Source: Methanomassiliicoccus sp.
GTDB taxonomy: Archaea; Thermoplasmatota; Thermoplasmata; Methanomassiliicoccales; Methanomassiliicoccaceae
DNA length: 64,000 nt
Direction of reading: 5' to 3'
NCBI GenBank assembly: GCA_016109435.1
Contig: JAEILR010000011.1
Location: 1-64,000 of the forward strand
The notes under the pieces are model-generated. The model was not told where the DNA came from, made no database searches, and was given only the letters and a program-made list of their open reading frames with translations. The translations under genes and the position numbers were made by a program. Positions 2,911 through 20,489 of this stretch are shown here, in pieces (within the stretch, counting starts at the first letter, position 1; each line of letters starts with the position of its first letter).

Positions 2911-3864
2911 ATGCTCATACCTCTGGTGCTCCTGGTAGCAAGCATCATCGTCATCTACTTCGGAGCGAGGTGGTTGGTCGAGGGAGCATCGGAACTGGCC
3001 GCCCACTTCGGCATCCCCCCTTTGGTGATCGGTCTGACCATCGTGGCCTTCGGTACTTCCCTTCCCGAGTTCGTGCTCGGAATGATCTCCGCTTTCGAGG
3101 GAGTGGGCTCGCTATCGGTCGGCAACGTCGTTGGCTCCAACATCGCAAATGCCACATACATTATCGGTGCATGCGCGCTTCTCGCCCCCATCGTCGTCCG
3201 GTTCGAGGAGATAAGGCGGGAGGCCATCTTCATGCTGGTCGCCCTCAGCATCTTGGTGCTTTTCTCATTGGATGGCCACATCGATGCGCTGGAGGGGACA
3301 CTGATGGTCTCGATGTTCGTCGCCTACTTCGTTCTGCTTGTCCGTTCGCTCTACTGCTGCCGGCCCCCTAAGGTCGTGATGGATGAGTTCGACGCCTCCC
3401 GCCCGGAGGCAGAAAAGCCGCTAAAGAGCCTCATGTTCCTCGCAGGGGGTGCGGCCATCCTGATCTTTGCCACCGATGTTGCGGTCAACTCAGCAACGGA
3501 GGTCGCCGCCATTCTGGGGATGAGCGAGTTCATAATCGGGGTGACGATAGTGACGCTGGGAACCACCACCCCGGAGTTCGCCACCAGCCTCATCGCCGCC
3601 CGCAAGGGAAGGGCGGACATCGCCATCGGCAATACCGTCGGAACCCTGGTCTTCAACTCCACCATCGTCCTGGGCGCGGGCGCGCTCATCACCCCATTGA
3701 CGATAACCGAGAGCCAGCTGATCCTGGGGATCCTACCGCTATTCCTCTTTGGAGTGCTTCTGGCAGGCATCGCCTACCGGCGGGAGAGCATAGGTAGGGT
3801 GGCCGGCGCGGGCCTGATCGTGCTGTATATCCTCTACATGGCGATCCTTCTATCGCTTACATGA
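2911..3864 (+). CDS. Calcium/sodium antiporter (CaCA family, YrbG-like)
   Basis: A 317-aa membrane protein with about 10 helices and the two inverted alpha repeats of Ca2+:cation exchangers. Repeat 1 reads GLTIVAFGTSLPEF (about residues 48-61); repeat 2 reads GVTIVTLGTTTPEFATS (about residues 210-226). The Glu of each repeat, which binds the ion, is present. In repeat 2 the usual GTSLPE is GTTTPE. It presumably exports Ca2+ in exchange for Na+ or H+. A TATA-like TTTTATC near 2873 precedes the ATG by about 37 bases. Confidence 0.9.
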   Translation: MLIPLVLLVASIIVIYFGARWLVEGASELAAHFGIPPLVIGLTIVAFGTSLPEFVLGMISAFEGVGSLSVGNVVGSNIANATYIIGACALLAPIVVRFEEIRREAIFMLVALSILVLFSLDGHIDALEGTLMVSMFVAYFVLLVRSLYCCRPPKVVMDEFDASRPEAEKPLKSLMFLAGGAAILIFATDVAVNSATEVAAILGMSEFIIGVTIVTLGTTTPEFATSLIAARKGRADIAIGNTVGTLVFNSTIVLGAGALITPLTITESQLILGILPLFLFGVLLAGIAYRRESIGRVAGAGLIVLYILYMAILLSLT

Positions 3865-4037: not shown

Positions 4038-4958
4038 GTGCGCAAGGACCTGCCCCTGCTGGCCATGGCCGGCATCTACATCCTCGTGCAGGTGGGCGCT
4101 GTCCTGCTGGCCCCCCTGTTCCTGCCGGAGTTCTCGGCGTTCCCCGACCCCAACGATCCGATCAACCCGTTCATCTACATCTTCATCGTCCTGATGATGA
4201 CGGCCGTCATCCTGATCCTGATCAAATACGGGCGCCAGCGCATCATCCAGGCCATCTTCTACGTCAGCATCTTCATCACCATGCTGTACGTGTTCCTCCC
4301 CCTGTTACTGCTGTTCGATGAGAGCGGAATCATCGCGCTGCTCGCCTCCCTGGCCCTGGCCGGGTTGCTGCTCTTCCTCCTGGCCAAGAGCGGAGAGTGG
4401 TACATCATCAACACCGTGGCGCTGATCATCGCCATCGGGGTCACCGCCATCCTGGGGATGTCGCTGGGGATCCTGCCGGTGATGATCCTGCTCATCATCA
4501 TGGCTATATACGACGCCATCTCGGTGTACAAGACCAAGCACATGATAGCCCTGGCCGAGGGTGTCGCCCCCATGCGCCTGCCGGTGCTGTTCGTCGTGCC
4601 CAAGGAGAAGGGCTTCAGCATGGACCAGGTGGAGAAGAAGGGATTGGTCCGCAAGGAGGGGGAGGAGAGGGAGGCGTTCTTCATGGGAGTCGGGGACGCG
4701 GTCATCCCCGGCCTCCTGGTAGTGTCGGCTTCCCTGTACCTGCCGGACACCGCCTCGTTCATCCTCACCGCCAACCTGTGGGCCGCCGCCGGGGCACTGA
4801 TCGGCGGACTGCTGGGCTACCTGGTCCTGTTCCGCGTGGTCATGAAAGGGAAGCCGCAGGCGGGGCTGCCGTTCCTCAACACCGGGGCCATCCTCGGCTA
4901 CCTCGTCGCCTTCGCCCTGGTCTACGGTACTGTCGGCTGGGAGATGCTGGGTCTGTGA
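4038..4958 (+). CDS. Presenilin/signal-peptide-peptidase-like intramembrane aspartyl protease
   Basis: A 306-aa protein with nine likely transmembrane helices. The two catalytic motifs of GxGD proteases are present: YD (Y158-D159, in AIYDAISVYKTKHM) and GxGD (G217-V-G-D220, in MGVGDAVIPG), separated by a hydrophilic loop (about residues 168-212) as in archaeal presenilin homologues. The third motif, PAL, is degenerate: at about residues 274-281 the sequence reads QAGLPFLNTG. Such enzymes cleave membrane-embedded substrates; the substrate here is unknown. The start is the GTG at 4038, with an AT-rich element about 45 bases upstream. The next gene follows after 40 bases. Confidence 0.82.
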   Translation: MRKDLPLLAMAGIYILVQVGAVLLAPLFLPEFSAFPDPNDPINPFIYIFIVLMMTAVILILIKYGRQRIIQAIFYVSIFITMLYVFLPLLLLFDESGIIALLASLALAGLLLFLLAKSGEWYIINTVALIIAIGVTAILGMSLGILPVMILLIIMAIYDAISVYKTKHMIALAEGVAPMRLPVLFVVPKEKGFSMDQVEKKGLVRKEGEEREAFFMGVGDAVIPGLLVVSASLYLPDTASFILTANLWAAAGALIGGLLGYLVLFRVVMKGKPQAGLPFLNTGAILGYLVAFALVYGTVGWEMLGL

Positions 4959-12029: not shown

Positions 12030-13544
12030 TTAGAAGTTCTTGATGTCCTGGTAGATGGACCCGTCGGCGTTCCTCACGATGGCCCTGAGGGGCATGTGGC
12101 CGGGCAGGGTGTGGGTGGCGCAGGAGTTGCAGGGGTCGTATGCCCTGTAGGCCATCTCCACCTCATTGAGGATACCGGGAGATATCTGCCAGTTCTTGAT
12201 CAGTCCCTTGGCGGCCTGCCGAACGGACAGGTTGATGGGGGCGTTGTTGTTGGTCGTCCCCACCACCAGGTTCACGTCGGTGGTGATGCCGTTCTCGTCC
12301 GCCACGTAGTGGTGGAAGAGAGTTCCACGGGGCGCCTCCAGGCAACCGATGCCTTCCCCGGGCTCGCCGGGCTTGGTCTGGATGTCCCTGCTGGTTATCT
12401 CGGGGTCCTGGGACAGCTCGAGCATCAGCTCGGCGGCGTGCACCAGCTCGATGACCCTGGCCCAGTGGTAGACCATGGTGTGGTGGATCGGTCCGTTGAT
12501 CCCCAGGCCCTTAAAGAAGTCCTTCATCTGCAGGTAGTAGTCCTGCGCCAGGGGGGTGGTGAAACCAGTGGACGCGTTGATCCTGGCCAGCGGGGCGCAT
12601 CTGTAGATGCCGCTCTTGGGGCCGTCGGTGAACCCGTTCCAGCCGATCTTCTTCATGAAGCAGAACTTCTCGTAGGACCACGGCTCGACATGCTCACCGA
12701 TGAAATCGAGGTACTTGTCGGGGTGGAACTTCCACATCTCCTTGCCGGTCTGATCCACGACCCTACAATCACCGTCGTAGAAGTTGATCTTGTTGTTCTT
12801 ATCAACCAGGCCCATGTAGTAGGTCTCGTTGTAGTAGATGCCCGGGTTGGTGATAAGGGCGAGGTAGTCCTCGTTCTTCAGCACGACGTCCGTGAGCAGC
12901 TGGGCGGTGAACTTGGCGAAGTCAACGGTGGACTTGCCCCACACCTCGATCTGGGCCCTCTCCTCCTCGGACAGGGGCTTGCTCATGCCGCCGGGGATGC
13001 CGCACACCGGGTGGGTAGCCTTGCCTCCCATCATCTCCTGGGTCTTCTGGGCCCAGGAGCGGTGCTTGATGACCTCGGCGCCGATGTTGACACCTACCGC
13101 GTCCACGACGCCCAGGATGTTCCTCTTCTCCGCCGGGGCCATGGGGCCGAGCACGAAGTCGGCGGCCGCCAGGGCGTAGAAGTGGGCGATGTGGCTGTGG
13201 ACGTAGTGAGCGGCGTAGAACAGCTCACGGAGCTTCTTTGCAGCGGGTGGGGGCTCGGCCTTGAACACGCCGTCCAGGGCCTTGGTGGAGCACAGGTGGT
13301 GCGCTCCGGGGCACACGCCGCACAGACGGGGGGTGATCTTGTTCAGCTCGTCGACCGACCGGCCGATGCAGAACTTCTCGAAGCCCCTCAGCTCCGGCAC
13401 CTGCCAGTAAGCGTTCGCCACATTACCCTCATCGTTCAGGAAGATCTCGATCTTCCCGTGACCCTCAAGCCTGGTGATGGGATCGATGGTGATCCTCTTG
13501 GACTCGGACTTGTGGGTCGGTTCAGAGATTATTGGACCGGCCAT
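12030..13544 (-). CDS. mvhA: F420-non-reducing [NiFe]-hydrogenase large subunit
   Basis: 504 aa. Both nickel-binding Cys pairs are present: RLCGVCPGAH (C75, C78) and DPCNSCATH (C472, C475). This subunit oxidises H2 in the cytoplasm and passes electrons through MvhG and MvhD to HdrA. A 26-residue tail follows the final CATH, and the family normally has its tail removed by a maturation protease after nickel insertion. It is the last gene of hdrA-mvhD-mvhG-mvhA and shares one base with the mvhG stop (TAATG), indicating translational coupling. T-rich sequence follows. Confidence 0.95.
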   Translation of the reverse strand: MAGPIISEPTHKSESKRITIDPITRLEGHGKIEIFLNDEGNVANAYWQVPELRGFEKFCIGRSVDELNKITPRLCGVCPGAHHLCSTKALDGVFKAEPPPAAKKLRELFYAAHYVHSHIAHFYALAAADFVLGPMAPAEKRNILGVVDAVGVNIGAEVIKHRSWAQKTQEMMGGKATHPVCGIPGGMSKPLSEEERAQIEVWGKSTVDFAKFTAQLLTDVVLKNEDYLALITNPGIYYNETYYMGLVDKNNKINFYDGDCRVVDQTGKEMWKFHPDKYLDFIGEHVEPWSYEKFCFMKKIGWNGFTDGPKSGIYRCAPLARINASTGFTTPLAQDYYLQMKDFFKGLGINGPIHHTMVYHWARVIELVHAAELMLELSQDPEITSRDIQTKPGEPGEGIGCLEAPRGTLFHHYVADENGITTDVNLVVGTTNNNAPINLSVRQAAKGLIKNWQISPGILNEVEMAYRAYDPCNSCATHTLPGHMPLRAIVRNADGSIYQDIKNF

Positions 13545-14551
13545 TAGTTAACACCTGCCTTCTTCTCCTTGACTTTCCGCTTGATGATGGACTTGGGCAT
13601 GGTGAACGCATAGAACGTTCCCAGGGGGTCCTTGATCTGGGTCATCAGCTCCAGGATCTCGTCCTCGGTGAGCTGGGTCTCGTTGTCGGCGGTCCTGAAG
13701 ATGGATGCCAGCGCGCTCAGCATCGAGCCGCCCTGGTCCATGACCGCAGCGGTCGGACCCATGCAGCCCCGGCAGGGCTGGTTCGCATCAAGGCACTTCG
13801 CGCCGCAGCCGGCCCGGGTGGCCGGTCCCAGGCAGATGACGCCCTGCTCCAGCATGCACTTCTTCGGATCGATGTCGATCTCGTAGGGCATGTTGATCCT
13901 GTCGATGGTGGTGACCTCCTTGGTCCTGCCGCACTCGTCGCACAGGGTCTTCTGGGAGGCGATCACGGTGCCCTTGGGGGGCAGCGGGGTGCCTTCCTTG
14001 ACATGCTGCTCCACGATCCCCAGGAAACTGTTGATCTGGTCGACGGTGGGCGGGCAGCCGGGCATGAAGTAATCGACGTCGATGACATCCTCGAGAGTGA
14101 GGACGGTGTCGTACATGACCGGCAGCTCCAGCTCTCCCTCGGGGGCCTGGAACTTGGGAAGGGGCCTGACGCGGTCGGGGTTGACGGTGGAGAAGGTCTT
14201 GTTGTAGACATAGTCCTGCAGGTCCTTCTTGTTGGTGACGTTGGCCAGACCGGGTATGCCGCCGAAACAGGCGCACGAACCGAAGGAGACCACGATGGCC
14301 GACTTCTGCCGGAGCAACCTGGCTACATGCTCGTTCTCGCTGTTCCTGACCGCGCCGTTGTAGAGCGTCAGGGTGATGCTCTTGTCGGGCATGGCCTCGA
14401 CGTCCTTCAGCTTGGTGTCGACCGCGATGGGCCAGAACACGATGTCAGCCATCTCGGCGACCCCAAGGATCTTCTCATCGATGTCCAGGAGGGCCACGTC
14501 GCATCCGCCGCATCCCGCGCCCCAGTATTGTGCTATCTTGACTTTTGCCAT
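13544..14551 (-). CDS. mvhG: F420-non-reducing [NiFe]-hydrogenase small subunit
   Basis: 335 aa. The N terminus AKVKIAQYWGAGCGGCDVAL carries the proximal cluster CxxC (C14, C17); further Cys appear in SFGSCACFGG, MPGCPPT and in a Cys-rich segment near residues 240-270 (KKCMLEQGVICLG, GCGAKC, CRGC), consistent with three Fe-S clusters. It relays electrons from the MvhA active site. The ATG at 14551 is chosen because the four upstream residues (MWWN) are not part of the family N terminus. Confidence 0.95.
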   Translation of the reverse strand: MAKVKIAQYWGAGCGGCDVALLDIDEKILGVAEMADIVFWPIAVDTKLKDVEAMPDKSITLTLYNGAVRNSENEHVARLLRQKSAIVVSFGSCACFGGIPGLANVTNKKDLQDYVYNKTFSTVNPDRVRPLPKFQAPEGELELPVMYDTVLTLEDVIDVDYFMPGCPPTVDQINSFLGIVEQHVKEGTPLPPKGTVIASQKTLCDECGRTKEVTTIDRINMPYEIDIDPKKCMLEQGVICLGPATRAGCGAKCLDANQPCRGCMGPTAAVMDQGGSMLSALASIFRTADNETQLTEDEILELMTQIKDPLGTFYAFTMPKSIIKRKVKEKKAGVN

Positions 14552-14566
14552 GTTCCACCACACTCC

Positions 14567-15064
14567 TTAATGATGTGAATCTCCGCGCCCGTGGGGCCTC
14601 TCTTCCTCGGCCTCCTTGAGCGGGTTCGGACCCAGTTCCTTCATCTTCGCGGTGAACTCCTTTATCGTGGACTGGAACTTCACTCCCTCAGAGGCGGAGA
14701 CCCACTCCAGCTGGAGGCGCTCGGGGTCGAGGCCGTACTGCTCGAGCAGCATCTTGAGGAGGGCGATCCTCCTCCGGGTCCTGTAGTTGCCGCCGATGTA
14801 GTGGCAGTCCGCGGGGTGGCAGCCGAGCACCAGGACGCCGTCGGCGCCCTTGGCGAAGGCCCGGAGGACGAACTCCGGGTCTACCCTGGCCGAGCACATG
14901 GCCCGGATGACCAGGAAGTTGGTCGGCATCTGCAACCTGGACACTCCTGCCAGGTCCGCGCCCGCGTACGAGCACCAGTTGCAGCAGAAGGCGATGATCT
15001 TGGGCTCGAACTCACCCTCTGCCGCCTTGGCCGCCGGGGCGGCCTCCGCGTGTTGTTGCGACAT
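14567..15064 (-). CDS. mvhD: F420-non-reducing hydrogenase iron-sulfur subunit D
   Basis: About 165 aa with the MvhD/FrhD-type 2Fe-2S domain: AFCCNWCSYAGADLAG (about residues 26-41), IRAMCSARVDPEF (about residue 57) and VLGCHPADCHYIGGNY (about residue 80), supplying the conserved Cys. MvhD docks hydrogenase to HdrA and carries electrons to the bifurcating flavin. A GTG at 15070 overlaps the hdrA stop and is an alternative start; ATG 15064 lies 2 bases after hdrA. It is freestanding here, not fused to HdrA as in some methanogens. Confidence 0.93.
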   Translation of the reverse strand: MSQQHAEAAPAAKAAEGEFEPKIIAFCCNWCSYAGADLAGVSRLQMPTNFLVIRAMCSARVDPEFVLRAFAKGADGVLVLGCHPADCHYIGGNYRTRRRIALLKMLLEQYGLDPERLQLEWVSASEGVKFQSTIKEFTAKMKELGPNPLKEAEEERPHGRGDSHH

Positions 15065-15066
15065 GT

Positions 15067-18000
15067 TCACTCACTCTCCTCGAGCGCGGCGTCGATAGCA
15101 GCGATGATCTGCTGGTTCTTGAAGCCCCTCTGCTCCATGGCGCCGGACGGGCAGGCCGCAACGCAGCAGCCGCAGCCCTTGCAAAGGCCCTCGTTGACGA
15201 TGGCCTTCTTCTTCTCGGGGTTCTTGGGGTCGGCCACAATGGTGATGGACTTGTACTCGCAGACCGGCTCGCAGATGGCGCAACCGTCGCAGAGATCCTC
15301 GTTCACCGCGGCGATGATCCCCTCGCTCTTCAGTTCGGGCTTGGAGATAATGGTCATGGCACGGGCGGCCGCTCCGGACGCCTGGGCGATGGCCTCATCG
15401 GTGAACTTGGGCCAGTGGGCAAGACCAGAGAGGTAGATGCCGTTGGTGGCGAAGTCGACCGGCCTCAGCTTCATGTGGGCCTCCAGGAAGTACTTGTCCT
15501 TGCTCAGGGGGACCTTGAGCATCTTGGCCAGGTCCTCGTTGCCGTGGTGGGGGCGTATCCCGGTGCTCAGCACGACCATGTCGGGGCGGAGCAGGAGGTC
15601 CTCGCCCAGGATGGTGTCGAAGGCGGTGAGCTTCAGCTCGCTGCCCTCCTTGGCCACCACTGGCGGCTTGTCCTCGGGGACTCTGACGAACTTCACGCCG
15701 ACCGTTCCGGCCTCCTTGTACAGCTCCTCACGGAAGCCGTAGGTCCTGATGTCCTTGTGGAACACGTAGACATCGGCCTTGGGGTTGGCCTTCTTCACGG
15801 CGATGGCGTTCTTGATGGCGTTGGCGCAGCACACCCTGCTGCAGTAGGGGGCCTCGGCGTTCCGGGAACCGACGCACTGGATCATGGCGATCTTCTTGGC
15901 GGCGAGGGATCCCTTCTGCATCTGGTCCTCCAGCTCCAGCTGGGTGACGACCCTGGGGTCCTCTCCGTAGAGGAACTCCTTGGGCTTGTACTCCTCCGCG
16001 CCGACCGCGACCACGATGCTGCCGGTCTCGATCTCGCCGTCGGTCGTCTGCACCTTGAAGTTGCCGACGAAGCCTCCGACGTCCTTGACCTCGGTGTTGA
16101 GGTGCACGGTGATGTTCTTGTTGTTCCGGACCCTGGTGATCAGTTCCTTGGCGAACTCCCGCACCTTGCGTCCGTCCTCCTCGTGGTAGATCTTCATGGC
16201 GTTGCCGCCTAGCTCTCCGCTCCTCTCGAGGAGGTCCACGGGGAAGCCCTGAGCGGCCATGTCCAGGGCGGCGGTCATTCCGGATATACCTCCACCAATG
16301 ACTATGGCGGAGTGGGTGACCGGCAGCTTGGACTCATAGAGGGGCTCGAGCAGCCGGGACTTGGCGACGGCCATCCTGACCAGGTCCATGGACTTCTGGG
16401 TGGCCTTCTCAGGCTCTCCCATGTGGATCCAGGAGCACTGGTCCCTGATGTTGGCCATCTCGAACAGATAGGGGTTCAGTCCGGCCTCCTTCAGGGTGCT
16501 CATGAACAGAGGCTCGTGGGTACGGGGAGTGCACGAGGCGACCACGACCCGGTTGAGCTTCTCCTTCTTGATGACATCCTTTATCTTACCCTGGGTATCG
16601 GCGGAGCAGGAGTACTTGTTCTCCTCCGCGTAGACCACATTGGGCAGGGTCTTGGCGTAGTCGACGACCTTGGGGACGTCCACCGTTCCCTTAATGTTGA
16701 TGCCGCAGTCGCAGACGAAGACACCGATCCTCGGCTCCTGGCCTTCAATATCGATCTCCTCGACCTTCTCCTCCTCGGCATGAAGCCTCTTGTTGGAGAT
16801 GTACGCGCCGGCCTTGGCGGCGGCACCGGAGGCCTCGGCGACCGAGGTCGGGATGTCCTTGGGAGCGGCGAAGGCGCCGGTCACGAAGACACCGGGGCGG
16901 CTGGAGGAAAGCGGGCTGTAGACATTGGTGCCGGCGAAGCCGAAGCGGTTCAGGTTGACACCGAAGATCTTGCCGAGGGCGTCAGCGCCCTTGGGCGGCT
17001 CCAGTCCGAGCGACAGGACCACCATGTCGAACCTCTCCTCGGCGACATCTCCGTTGGCGGAGTAACGCAGGAGGAGGTCCTTGGTCTCGGGGTCCTGGAT
17101 GATGTTGGCCACCCTGGTCGCGCGGTGCATCTTGATGCCGTACTCCTTCTCGGCCCTGGCCCGGTAGTCCTCGAACTCCTTGCCGACCGCCCGGATATCC
17201 ATGAAGAAGATGGTCGGCTTGAGCCCGGCGGTGTGTTCGCCGGCGATGATCGCCTGCTTCATGGCATACATGCAGCAGACCGAGGAACAGTAGGTGTTCC
17301 CGACCTTCTCGTCCCTGGACCCCACGCACTGCAGGAAGGCGATCTTCTTAGGGGCCTTCTGGTCCGAGGGCCTGAGCACGTGGCCGCCGTATGGGCCGGT
17401 GGCGCTGAGGAACCTCTCGAACTCGAGGGAGGTGACGACGTTGGGGTACTCCCCGTAGCCGTACTCCTTCTTCAGGCGGGCGTCGAATGCGGAGAACCCG
17501 GGAGCGAGGATGATCGCGCCGATGTCAAGGGTCTCTTCGACCTCCTTGTCCTCGTAGTTGATGGCCCCGGCGGGACAGTTCTTCTCGCACAGCCCGCAGC
17601 GCCCCTTGGTCAGCTTGAGGCACTTCGATGCGTCGATGGTGAACTTCAGGGGGACTGCCTGGGCAAAGGGGATGTAGATAGCCTTACGGTTGACGAGATT
17701 GGCGTCATACTCGTTGGGCACCTTGACCGGGCACTTCTCAGCGCAAATGCCGCAACCGACGCACTTGTCCATGCTGACATAGCGGGGGTTGTGGCGCACC
17801 TTCACCTTGAAGTCGGGGGCCTCGCCGGAGACGTCCACGACCTCGGACATTGTCATGAGGTTGATCATGGGATGTCTGGCAGCCTCGACCAGCTTAGGCG
17901 AAAGAATGCACATCGAACAGTCATTCGTCGGGAAGGTCTTGTCCAGCTGGGACATGACCCCTCCGATGCTTGGCGTCTTCTCAACCAGGTAGACCTGGAA

Positions 18001-18084
18001 CCCCGACTCGGCAAGGTCCAAAGCGGTCTGTACGCCGGAGATACCTCCTCCGACGACCATTACTGCACCTGCTTTTTCCGACAT
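15067..18084 (-). CDS. hdrA: Heterodisulfide reductase subunit A, long duplicated form
   Basis: 1005 aa, against about 650-670 for ordinary HdrA. Residues 1-440 are an HdrA-like unit with a FAD-binding VVGGGISG (about 10-17), TNDCSMCI, and ferredoxin clusters CVGCGICAEKCP (108-119) and CGLCEKNCP (163-171). Residues about 452-1005 form a second, near-complete HdrA: the N-terminal VFVCDCGINI cluster domain (457-463), a second VIGGGISG (595-602), and two C-terminal 4Fe-4S motifs, CDGCAICEPVC and CKGCGCCVAACP. HdrA carries the bifurcating FAD that couples H2 oxidation to ferredoxin and CoM-S-S-CoB reduction; HdrBC are not in the window. GGAGGA (18091-18096) precedes the ATG. Confidence 0.93.
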   Translation of the reverse strand: MSEKAGAVMVVGGGISGVQTALDLAESGFQVYLVEKTPSIGGVMSQLDKTFPTNDCSMCILSPKLVEAARHPMINLMTMSEVVDVSGEAPDFKVKVRHNPRYVSMDKCVGCGICAEKCPVKVPNEYDANLVNRKAIYIPFAQAVPLKFTIDASKCLKLTKGRCGLCEKNCPAGAINYEDKEVEETLDIGAIILAPGFSAFDARLKKEYGYGEYPNVVTSLEFERFLSATGPYGGHVLRPSDQKAPKKIAFLQCVGSRDEKVGNTYCSSVCCMYAMKQAIIAGEHTAGLKPTIFFMDIRAVGKEFEDYRARAEKEYGIKMHRATRVANIIQDPETKDLLLRYSANGDVAEERFDMVVLSLGLEPPKGADALGKIFGVNLNRFGFAGTNVYSPLSSSRPGVFVTGAFAAPKDIPTSVAEASGAAAKAGAYISNKRLHAEEEKVEEIDIEGQEPRIGVFVCDCGINIKGTVDVPKVVDYAKTLPNVVYAEENKYSCSADTQGKIKDVIKKEKLNRVVVASCTPRTHEPLFMSTLKEAGLNPYLFEMANIRDQCSWIHMGEPEKATQKSMDLVRMAVAKSRLLEPLYESKLPVTHSAIVIGGGISGMTAALDMAAQGFPVDLLERSGELGGNAMKIYHEEDGRKVREFAKELITRVRNNKNITVHLNTEVKDVGGFVGNFKVQTTDGEIETGSIVVAVGAEEYKPKEFLYGEDPRVVTQLELEDQMQKGSLAAKKIAMIQCVGSRNAEAPYCSRVCCANAIKNAIAVKKANPKADVYVFHKDIRTYGFREELYKEAGTVGVKFVRVPEDKPPVVAKEGSELKLTAFDTILGEDLLLRPDMVVLSTGIRPHHGNEDLAKMLKVPLSKDKYFLEAHMKLRPVDFATNGIYLSGLAHWPKFTDEAIAQASGAAARAMTIISKPELKSEGIIAAVNEDLCDGCAICEPVCEYKSITIVADPKNPEKKKAIVNEGLCKGCGCCVAACPSGAMEQRGFKNQQIIAAIDAALEESE

Positions 18085-18483
18085 TTATGCTCCTCCAAAA
18101 TACTTCTTCTTAGATGATTCGTCCCTAGATGATATACAATACATCGGTCCTTTGGGCAATTTTACCGCGGATTTCTGGGTTGTTTCCGCCCCGTTTCCGA
18201 GCATCGATCCTCCTCTTGCCGGGTGCGTTGTCCCCGAGGGGCCGCTATTGGCCGATCCCGACATATTGGACAAATTGCTTCCAGGGGCAAGCAGCTGCAC
18301 AGGTTTTGCGTGTGAACACAGCTCATGGCCTGGGTGCTTTTTGGCGGAAATGGAATGTTCGTATATTAACGTATCGTACATTGCCTCGAAATCGCTCCAT
18401 GCCTTGTTTTGTGGCCCAATCTTGGCATTAGCATTTATAAACGTATCGGTGCCGGAGACAGTATTTTACGAACGTTCGTAATC
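18085..18483. promoter_or_regulatory. Divergent intergenic region between hdrA and the RING-like gene (399 bp)
   Basis: No credible gene is seen. Minus strand: ATTGTATATC (18131-18140) is a likely hdrA TATA box, leaving a leader of about 20-25 bases that ends in a strong GGAGGA. Plus strand: TTTATAA (18434-18440) is a likely TATA box for the gene at 18484. Between that box and the ATG lies the 16-bp palindrome at 18466-18481. A related, degenerate TTCGTATATTAACGTA lies near 18357-18372. Confidence 0.6.
18466..18481. promoter_or_regulatory. Perfect 16-bp palindrome (candidate operator)
   Basis: TTACGAACGTTCGTAA is a perfect palindrome ending 2 bases before the ATG at 18484 and about 26 bases downstream of the TATA box, over the predicted transcription start. 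A dimeric repressor bound here would block initiation. The regulator is not identified. Confidence 0.6.
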
Positions 18484-19293
18484 ATGGTCCTGAAACCCCC
18501 ATCTCCGAGCGTCCAGCATATTATCAAACCTACTAATGGAGAACCAACCGGCATAAAGAGGCAACGCTCTCGGACCCCCGTGTTCGACCCCAAACGTCCC
18601 TTAAGCGCTCGTTTTAACGTTTCCGGGCTCGGAGAACGAGTCAGGAAGATCATCTCCGCGAGAAAAGGGGACGGAGGAGGGGACGCCCGGCCCAAGGAAC
18701 GCCCCCGCATACAGATCACCGGCCGGGAGGAAGAGAGAGCGGTCTGCCAGGTCTGCATGGGGCGGATCAAGCCCGGCACCGAGTACTCGTTCTGCGGCGC
18801 TGGAAAGTTCCACAGCTCGTGCATCGATCGGGTCGGGCACTGTCCCTTCTGCCGGCGGAACCACGCGATAATGGGTAATGAGGAGGTCACCTCCAGGCGA
18901 TATGTCCCTATCAACGTCCCGTCCCACCCGGAGAGGGAAGAGCGACAGACCATCGCCGGACCCATGTGCCCGGCCTGCGGTGAGCCGGTGGGGGCCGAGG
19001 CCAACATCTGCCTGGCCTGCGGCGCCATCTTCGTAGCCGAGAGCGGGACCTTCCCCTGCCCATCCTGCGGTTCCACGGTCGATGCGGACCACGATCACTG
19101 CGACCGCTGCGGGGAACCGTTCCAGCCGATGAGGTCCCGGTCCTGCCCGGCGTGCGGGAGGGCGGTGGAGGCGGATGTGGTGAGCTGCATCTGCGGGGCC
19201 GTCCTGGGGGACCAATGCCCCAAGTGCGGGTCGATGCTCCCGGAGGACGCCACCGTGTGCGGGGCCTGCGGCTCTCTCTTCGAGTTCGTATGA
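18484..19293 (+). CDS. RING-like domain plus four zinc ribbons, unknown function
   Basis: A 269-aa soluble protein I cannot place in a named family. After a basic, low-complexity N terminus (residues 1-80), residues about 86-125 read CQVC-x10-C-x5-HSSC-x6-CPFC, a C-C-C-H-C-C-C arrangement close to a RING or related treble-clef finger, with Asp where the sixth ligand would be. Residues about 160-269 hold four CxxC…C(x)xC zinc ribbons (CPACG/CLACG, CPSCG/CDRCG, CPACG/CICG, CPKCG/CGACG). The ATG at 18484 directly follows a TATA box and palindrome; the frame is open upstream to 18409 but that part is promoter. ftsZ follows in the same direction after about 130 bases with its own promoter. Confidence 0.7.
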   Translation: MVLKPPSPSVQHIIKPTNGEPTGIKRQRSRTPVFDPKRPLSARFNVSGLGERVRKIISARKGDGGGDARPKERPRIQITGREEERAVCQVCMGRIKPGTEYSFCGAGKFHSSCIDRVGHCPFCRRNHAIMGNEEVTSRRYVPINVPSHPEREERQTIAGPMCPACGEPVGAEANICLACGAIFVAESGTFPCPSCGSTVDADHDHCDRCGEPFQPMRSRSCPACGRAVEADVVSCICGAVLGDQCPKCGSMLPEDATVCGACGSLFEFV

Positions 19294-19387: not shown

Positions 19388-19421
19388 CTTGTCAATGCAC
19401 AATTAGTTCTTGAACAACGGG

Positions 19422-20489
19422 ATGCACATGAAGGATATGGTAAACCGAGCTGGAAGCTTCACTTCCAGCGCCGATCACGAGACAGGGGCCTCGGTGGCCC
19501 CCCCGGCCAGCACGGACGATGATGACCTTAGGAAGCTTGTCGAATCCTTGCAGATCGGGATAGCTATAGTGGGATGCGGAGGAGGCGGCTCCAACACCGT
19601 CAACCGGCTTACGGCAGCGGGGGTGGCCGGGGCCAAGGTCGTGGCGGCGAACAGCGATGCCCGCCACCTGCTCACAGTGAAGGTCCCTCACAAGATCATC
19701 CTGGGGAAGGTCTCCACGAAGGGACTGGGAGCCGGGGCCATACCGGAGGTGGGCAGGTCCGCCGCGGAGGAGGCTCGCGACGAGCTCATGGCCCATATCG
19801 AGGGGAACAGAGTAGTGTTCGTCACCGCGGGGATGGGGGGCGGCACAGGCACTGGATCGGCACCTTACGTTGCCGAGCTGGCGAGGCGCGTCGGGGCCCT
19901 GACCATCGGTGTCGTCACCATGCCCTTCAAGGCCGAGGGCCGACTGCGGATGGAGAACGCCAAGAAAGGCCTCTTGAAGCTGCATGAGAACTGCGACACC
20001 ACGATCATCATCCACAACGAGCAGCTCCTGAAGCTGGTGCCCAAGCTGCCCCTCGAAGCTGCGTTCAGGGTGGCGGACGAGACCCTCATGCACGGCATCA
20101 AGGGGATTACCGAGATCATTACGAAACCGGGACTGGTCAACGTCGACTTCAACGATATCAACACCATAATGAGGAATGGGGGAGTGGCCATGATCGGCAT
20201 GGGAGAGAGCGCGGAGGGCAGGGACAGGGTGCCCAACGCCGTCCAGGAAGCTCTCAGCTCTCCCCTGCTGGGCGACTTCGACATGTCCTCGGCGGAGGGC
20301 TGCCTGGTCAGGGTCCAGGGAGGCCCAGACCTCACCGTGGGGGAGGCAGAGATGGCCGCGGAGATGATCTCCTCGAAGCTGAATTCCCGGGCAAGGATTA
20401 TATGGGGTTGCTCCATAGAGCCGGAACTGGAGGGAAGGGTGAGCCTGCTCGTGGTCATCACCGGGGTGAAGACCCCCCTGATCCCGTAG
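19422..20489 (+). CDS. ftsZ: Cell division GTPase FtsZ
   Basis: About 355 aa. The N-terminal tubulin-like GTPase domain has [15 protein letters not shown], the tubulin signature [14 protein letters not shown], and the catalytic T7 loop [11 protein letters not shown] (NxDxxD); the C-terminal domain ends …GVKTPLIP. It polymerises into the division ring. The first 35 or so residues are polar and variable, and there is no long C-terminal linker. Start is ambiguous: TTG 19410, ATG 19422 and ATG 19428 are in frame; 19422 is chosen from the promoter distance. rnp2 follows 16 bases after the stop, suggesting cotranscription. Confidence 0.95.

Follow-up and report, generated by a model that had tools for sequence, protein, structure and literature searches.

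To our knowledge, methanogens have few transcription factors known to respond to redox state; MsvR is one of them, and few of its targets are known. In the published account (PMC3729527), its recognition motif is written as TTCGTAN4TACGAA or TTCGN7-9CGAA, and the MsvR boxes overlap the start site of fpaA in Methanothermobacter thermautotrophicus. A literature search for MsvR and Methanomassiliicoccus together found no paper. The locus described here lies in a stretch of 64,000 nucleotides, hereafter the window, from Methanomassiliicoccus sp. (contig JAEILR010000011.1), in the gap between an hdrA-like gene and a divergent gene for a RING-like zinc-binding protein. A 16-bp palindrome in this gap probably serves as the operator of an MsvR-family repressor that would sense redox state; this protein, composed of an ArsR-type winged helix and a V4R domain, is encoded elsewhere in the genome.

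The palindrome, TTACGAACGTTCGTAA, occupies positions 18466 to 18481, reads the same on both strands, and ends two bases before an ATG at 18484. It is perfectly symmetric and lies between a TATA-like box and that ATG, just as a sequence-only reading of the window had described it. In its compact form it is written TACGAA-CG-TTCGTA, with the order CGAA-N2-TTCG, and it does not fit the published MsvR box TTCG-N7-9-CGAA. Because its order differs from the published one, the palindrome would be a variant of the MsvR operator. When up to three mismatches are allowed, TTACGAACGTTCGTAA has a single match within the window, with 0.04 expected. The same reading had argued from the symmetry that chance was an unlikely source. 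This argument is not supported, since the window contains two perfect 16-bp palindromes versus ~1.5 expected at 62% GC; the expectation for a 400-bp gap is about 0.01. The symmetry by itself is not significant, and it is conservation that counts: what exceeds chance is that 14 of the 15 genomes of the window's family retain the core here. The second perfect palindrome, GATGACGGCCGTCATC at 4196 to 4211, is located within a membrane-protein-like open reading frame and is probably a chance occurrence.

With two or fewer mismatches, the 16-mer is present in all seven genomes of the genus, each time at the hdrA/RING-like locus, and at one extra place in G003. Of the 147 genomes of the order, 18 have the exact 12-base core, ACGAACGTTCGT: 14 of the 15 in the window's family (f1), where it sits at the hdrA/RING-like promoter, and 4 of the 132 outside it. 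When the promoter regions of the 14 family genomes are aligned across 18380 to 18595, all 12 core columns are invariant, versus 9 of 204 other columns. One of these nine is the A directly after the core, and the invariant block extends from 18468 to 18480. The 14 genomes contain 29 exact cores, whereas a reversed-pattern control gave none. Fourteen of the 29 belong to the hdrA/RING-like locus and 15 to other loci: five upstream of one regulator gene (G008 and G010-G013), two each between an acyl-CoA-synthetase-like gene and a gene with a CBS domain, upstream of an HTH_10 regulator, and upstream of a symporter-like gene, with the last four at other places (one in G012:C3, one in G014:C79, and two in G009), several of the gene names having been assigned by eye. 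The exact core just upstream of the HTH_10 (Bat-like) regulator in G003, and of a look-alike in G004 (L064 and L065, near 3000-3100), hints at a regulatory cascade.

A whole-genome search for the palindrome upstream of other genes, which had been proposed earlier, gave a divided answer. In the source genome the core occurs only once with zero or one mismatch, but some relatives have sites at other genes. A one-mismatch scan of the genus yielded 24 further-mismatch or extra matches. The prospect that the palindrome might be neither conserved in close relatives nor present elsewhere was not borne out, although its other targets are visible only family-wide. Outside the family, ACGAAYRTTCGT gave 9 hits versus 6 for the control in f3 and 10 versus 8 in f2, as compared with 31 versus 1 in f1. 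The motif was rejected as an order-wide signal, its enrichment being confined to f1. Among 20 RING-like promoters outside the family, six contain exact CGAANNTTCG, with fewer than 0.2 expected by a simple count. In the RING-like promoter of L022 (G047, family f2) the palindrome is replaced by TTCGTATATTCACGAA, a TTCG-N8-CGAA box with the published MsvR spacing, and in genus g13 (G027, G044, and G054) a related site, identified by eye, precedes the TATA-like box.

The TATA-like box of the RING-like gene, TTTATAAA, was located by eye at 18434 to 18441 on the plus strand. The palindrome begins ~28 bases after its centre, and the segment between the two has zero indels in the 14 family genomes. 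This constant spacing supports the earlier reading of an operator-like site over the transcription start, a start that is predicted from the TATA spacing. Just 3' of the box, at 18444 to 18449 on the plus strand, lies a TATCGG element whose TATCG is replaced by TTTCG in 11 of the 14 family genomes; TTTCGG after the TATA-like box also occurs in some f3 genomes and is a candidate second element.

The ATG at 18484, which had been read as the start codon of the RING-like gene, is probably not the start. None of the nine relatives examined has an ATG at the corresponding spot (G013 has an in-frame ATG four bases further on), and in the relatives examined most candidate starts, together with the protein similarity, fall 76 to 147 bases beyond the first palindrome base. 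The GTG at 18580 (+114), which aligns with the starts of G003-G005, fits the protein alignment better. The gene would accordingly extend from 18580 to 19293 on the plus strand, and its transcript would likely carry a leader of ~100 bases. Part of the genus has in common, within 18520 to 18580 of this leader, a ATTATCAA.CCTAC/G.AA-like sequence. An Rfam search of 17900 to 18800 with E values up to 1 gave no match. The encoded zinc-binding protein ends in double zinc ribbons. Its first zinc cluster is RING-like in that the top Foldseek matches are RING fingers, with weak E-values from 0.017 and a modest structure prediction (mean pLDDT 70, pTM 0.34). The next gene is ftsZ, at 19410 to 20489 on the plus strand.

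The candidate binder is a protein of 249 amino acid residues encoded elsewhere in the source genome (G000:C23:47193-47939). Its gene is the regulator gene that follows exact sites in five genomes, and it is present in 14 of the 15 family genomes. G007 alone is without it, and this genome is also without the palindrome, a close RING-like match, and the half-box at hdrA, while the hdrA TATA block is kept; the co-occurrence of regulator and palindrome in 14 of 15 genomes rests on this one loss. The Pfam domains are HTH_5 (46.2 bits, cut-off 22) and V4R (31.1 bits, barely above the cut-off of 31). The three regulators scored all pass the NCBIfam MsvR equivalog NF053755, with scores of 235.7, 240.5, and 237.8 bits (cut-off 220). 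That from the source genome scores 235.7 bits, and L091, a canonical-type paralogue from G001 with which it is 32% identical, scores 324. The V4R cysteines, Cys 205, Cys 231 (counted by eye), and Cys 239, have the same spacing as Cys 206, Cys 232, and Cys 240 of the published Methanosarcina acetivorans MsvR. The middle cysteine is a threonine in the three f3 sequences aligned. The predicted structure (mean pLDDT 76.6) contains a winged helix together with a C-terminal part of alpha/beta type, and in a sequence search of the PDB the HTH part alone was matched, to ArsR-like proteins.

Within the promoter of the regulator gene itself, the best match to the site has zero mismatches in five genomes, one in G002, two in G006 and G014, and three in six, the source genome included. 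The seven genus genomes all have it at -53, the other seven between -60 and -63. As a control, 9347 stretches of 150 bp were drawn at random from family loci with exact sites left out; 7.2% of them reach three or fewer mismatches. Both G001 and G009 possess a second, canonical-type MsvR gene (L091 and L092, 74% identical to each other), and two TTCG-N8-CGAA boxes lie upstream of each (1300-1500).

Canonical msvR promoters were taken from the best 80 of 267 MsvR-family loci in a scan of named genomes, with L091 and L092 added and three loci of the window's own regulator type removed (n = 79). Many of these loci are closely related, such that the counts are not independent, and the shuffles preserve base composition only. 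There are 28 TTCG-N8-CGAA boxes, distributed over 24 of the 79 promoters. Fifteen of these boxes have a 3' half that continues as [CT][AG]TTC, so the 3' arm is CGAA[CT][AG]TTC, a core derived in this analysis rather than a published feature. Of the 79 promoters, 77 have enough upstream sequence; 16 of the 77 contain this core (0.2 in shuffles), and all 16 are among the 27 promoters outside Methanobrevibacter (0.1 in shuffles). The form that is one base longer, CGAA-N3-TTC, occurs in 29 of the 77 (1.0 in shuffles), 28 of them from Methanobrevibacter; CGAA/TTC spacings of 1, 4, and 5 were observed in none of the 77. Four Methanobrevibacter promoters were inspected: L146 and L152 have the sequence ACGAACAGTTCGT, a third differs, and the fourth has none. 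Because CGAA[CT][AG]TTC recurs in canonical msvR promoters, the palindrome would be a symmetrised version of an arm that these promoters already use.

On the other side of the gap, the hdrA-like gene, with FAD and 4Fe-4S domains, occupies 15067 to 18084 on the minus strand, and the genes at 12030 to 15070 are, by eye, presumably those for the hydrogenase subunits mvhA, mvhG, and mvhD. The hdrA TATA-like box, TTAATATA, assigned by eye to 18362 to 18369 on the minus strand, is the same in all 14 genomes and in G007, and the leader would be about 250 nt. Overlapping the edge of this box is a weaker half-box, TACGAACATTCC, at 18352 to 18363 on the minus strand, whose sequence is similar to the 3' arm of msvR boxes found elsewhere. 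Eight of the 14 family genomes, the seven of the genus plus G014, have the exact half-box; in the other six it differs at two or more bases. The sequence-only reading had noted a half-site near 18357 to 18372; a related, weaker box does exist at the hdrA promoter, but it is better placed at 18352 to 18363. The hdrA promoter block from 18310 to 18400 (GGGTGCTTTT...TATATTAACATATCG) has several tens of bases conserved in the family, which exceeds the need of a bare TATA box.

In G008, G010, and G014, tblastn searches of the gap with two RING-like proteins (E up to 1) detected no RING-like gene. The TATA-like box and the palindrome are retained in these genomes, and in the 60 alignment columns downstream the pairwise agreement among the three is only 13/49, 16/57, and 14/49. 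Given that the site persists where the RING-like gene is undetectable, the palindrome most simply serves a further role at hdrA, with ftsZ as the alternative. A broader proposal is that a redox-sensing MsvR paralogue in Methanomassiliicoccales uses a compact inverted MsvR box to control directly both the hdrA operon (heterodisulfide reductase and the adjacent hydrogenase genes) and the RING-like zinc protein, with the hdrA side as the target that selection has kept, since the operator outlives the RING-like gene; this we advance tentatively, its chances lying a little below even.

With respect to mechanism, we infer that a dimer of the regulator would read the half-sites TTACGAAC and GTTCGTAA. 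The palindrome would cover the likely transcription start of the RING-like gene, and the bound protein would block the loading or the escape of RNA polymerase. The weaker half-box at hdrA, whose centre lies about 117 bp from that of the palindrome, would extend the action of this protein to the divergent hdrA operon, and action at the two sites is possibly cooperative.

The occurrence pattern of the palindrome suggests a docking site for an MsvR relative, and several observations count against it. The order CGAA-N2-TTCG is opposite to that of the published box, and that box is present in full in just 24 of the 79 canonical loci. Relatives of the regulator (E of 1e-15 or less) are found in 103 of the 147 order genomes, yet the exact core reaches only 4 of 132 genomes beyond the family, where ACGAAYRTTCGT lacks clear enrichment. 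None of the 12 f3/f4 regulator promoters examined (of 16 loci) contains CGAANNTTCG, and the regulator promoter of the source genome has only a three-mismatch site. The limitation of the genome-wide enrichment to f1, with MsvR relatives more widely spread, would also suit an operator for another family-specific transcription factor, such as the HTH_10 regulator or, by autoregulation, the RING-like zinc protein; an HTH_10 gene (Pfam) indeed directly follows an exact site in G003, with its look-alike in G004. Another factor of this type is nonetheless unlikely. The exact site accompanies HTH_10 in 2 of 14 genomes, whereas all 14 have a positioned site with zero to three mismatches at the msvR-like gene, and the core is common to the msvR promoters of other methanogens. 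The RING-like protein was set aside as an unlikely repressor of its own gene, given that in G008, G010, and G014 the site outlives it.

A role at the RNA level, in which the RING-like transcript would form a 5' hairpin that affects stability or translation, draws on the fact that UUACGAACGUUCGUAA, if transcribed, folds on itself (-3.7 kcal/mol) and would be at the 5' end. The fold is weak, however, and the predicted leader folds vary among the four genomes folded. It is the letters that are invariant and not the pairing alone, the same core appears upstream of other genes, and in the g13 genomes the related site precedes the TATA-like box; the hairpin is judged highly improbable. Very little probability is likewise assigned to a chance palindrome or to a core-promoter element that is conserved without having a dedicated regulator. 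The number of perfect palindromes in the window, the location at the initiator position, and the single copy in the source genome are all in keeping with such an origin, but the core is invariant in 14 genomes in which the flanks have diverged, and 15 of the 29 exact copies, compared with no reversed ones, are at other loci.

If the MsvR-family reading is correct, a conserved operator beside hdrA would connect the sensing of redox state with the central enzyme of electron bifurcation in an abundant order of methanogens, and a repressor related to MsvR may control a core energy-conserving enzyme. The MsvR recognition element would then be redrawn around CGAA[CT][AG]TTC, which is testable across methanogens.

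The locus shares this core with 16 of the 27 canonical msvR promoters from outside Methanobrevibacter, the full set covering Methanoculleus, Methanoregula, Methanobrevibacter, and others; unlike the palindrome, 24 of the 79 canonical loci also have the full TTCG-N8-CGAA box. In the published account (PMC3729527), the operators of M. thermautotrophicus PmsvR/fpaA and M. acetivorans PmsvR are arranged as TTCGTA-N4-TACGAA, in contrast to the compact TACGAA-CG-TTCGTA observed here, and the M. thermautotrophicus locus involves fpaA rather than hdrA and a RING-like gene. The likenesses to these systems (PMC3729527) are the half-site letters TTCGTA/TACGAA, a site in the promoter of the msvR-family gene, and a regulator with an HTH domain, a V4R domain, and three conserved V4R cysteines; the published placement over the start site or the BRE/TATA region would be matched here by the position predicted from TATA spacing.
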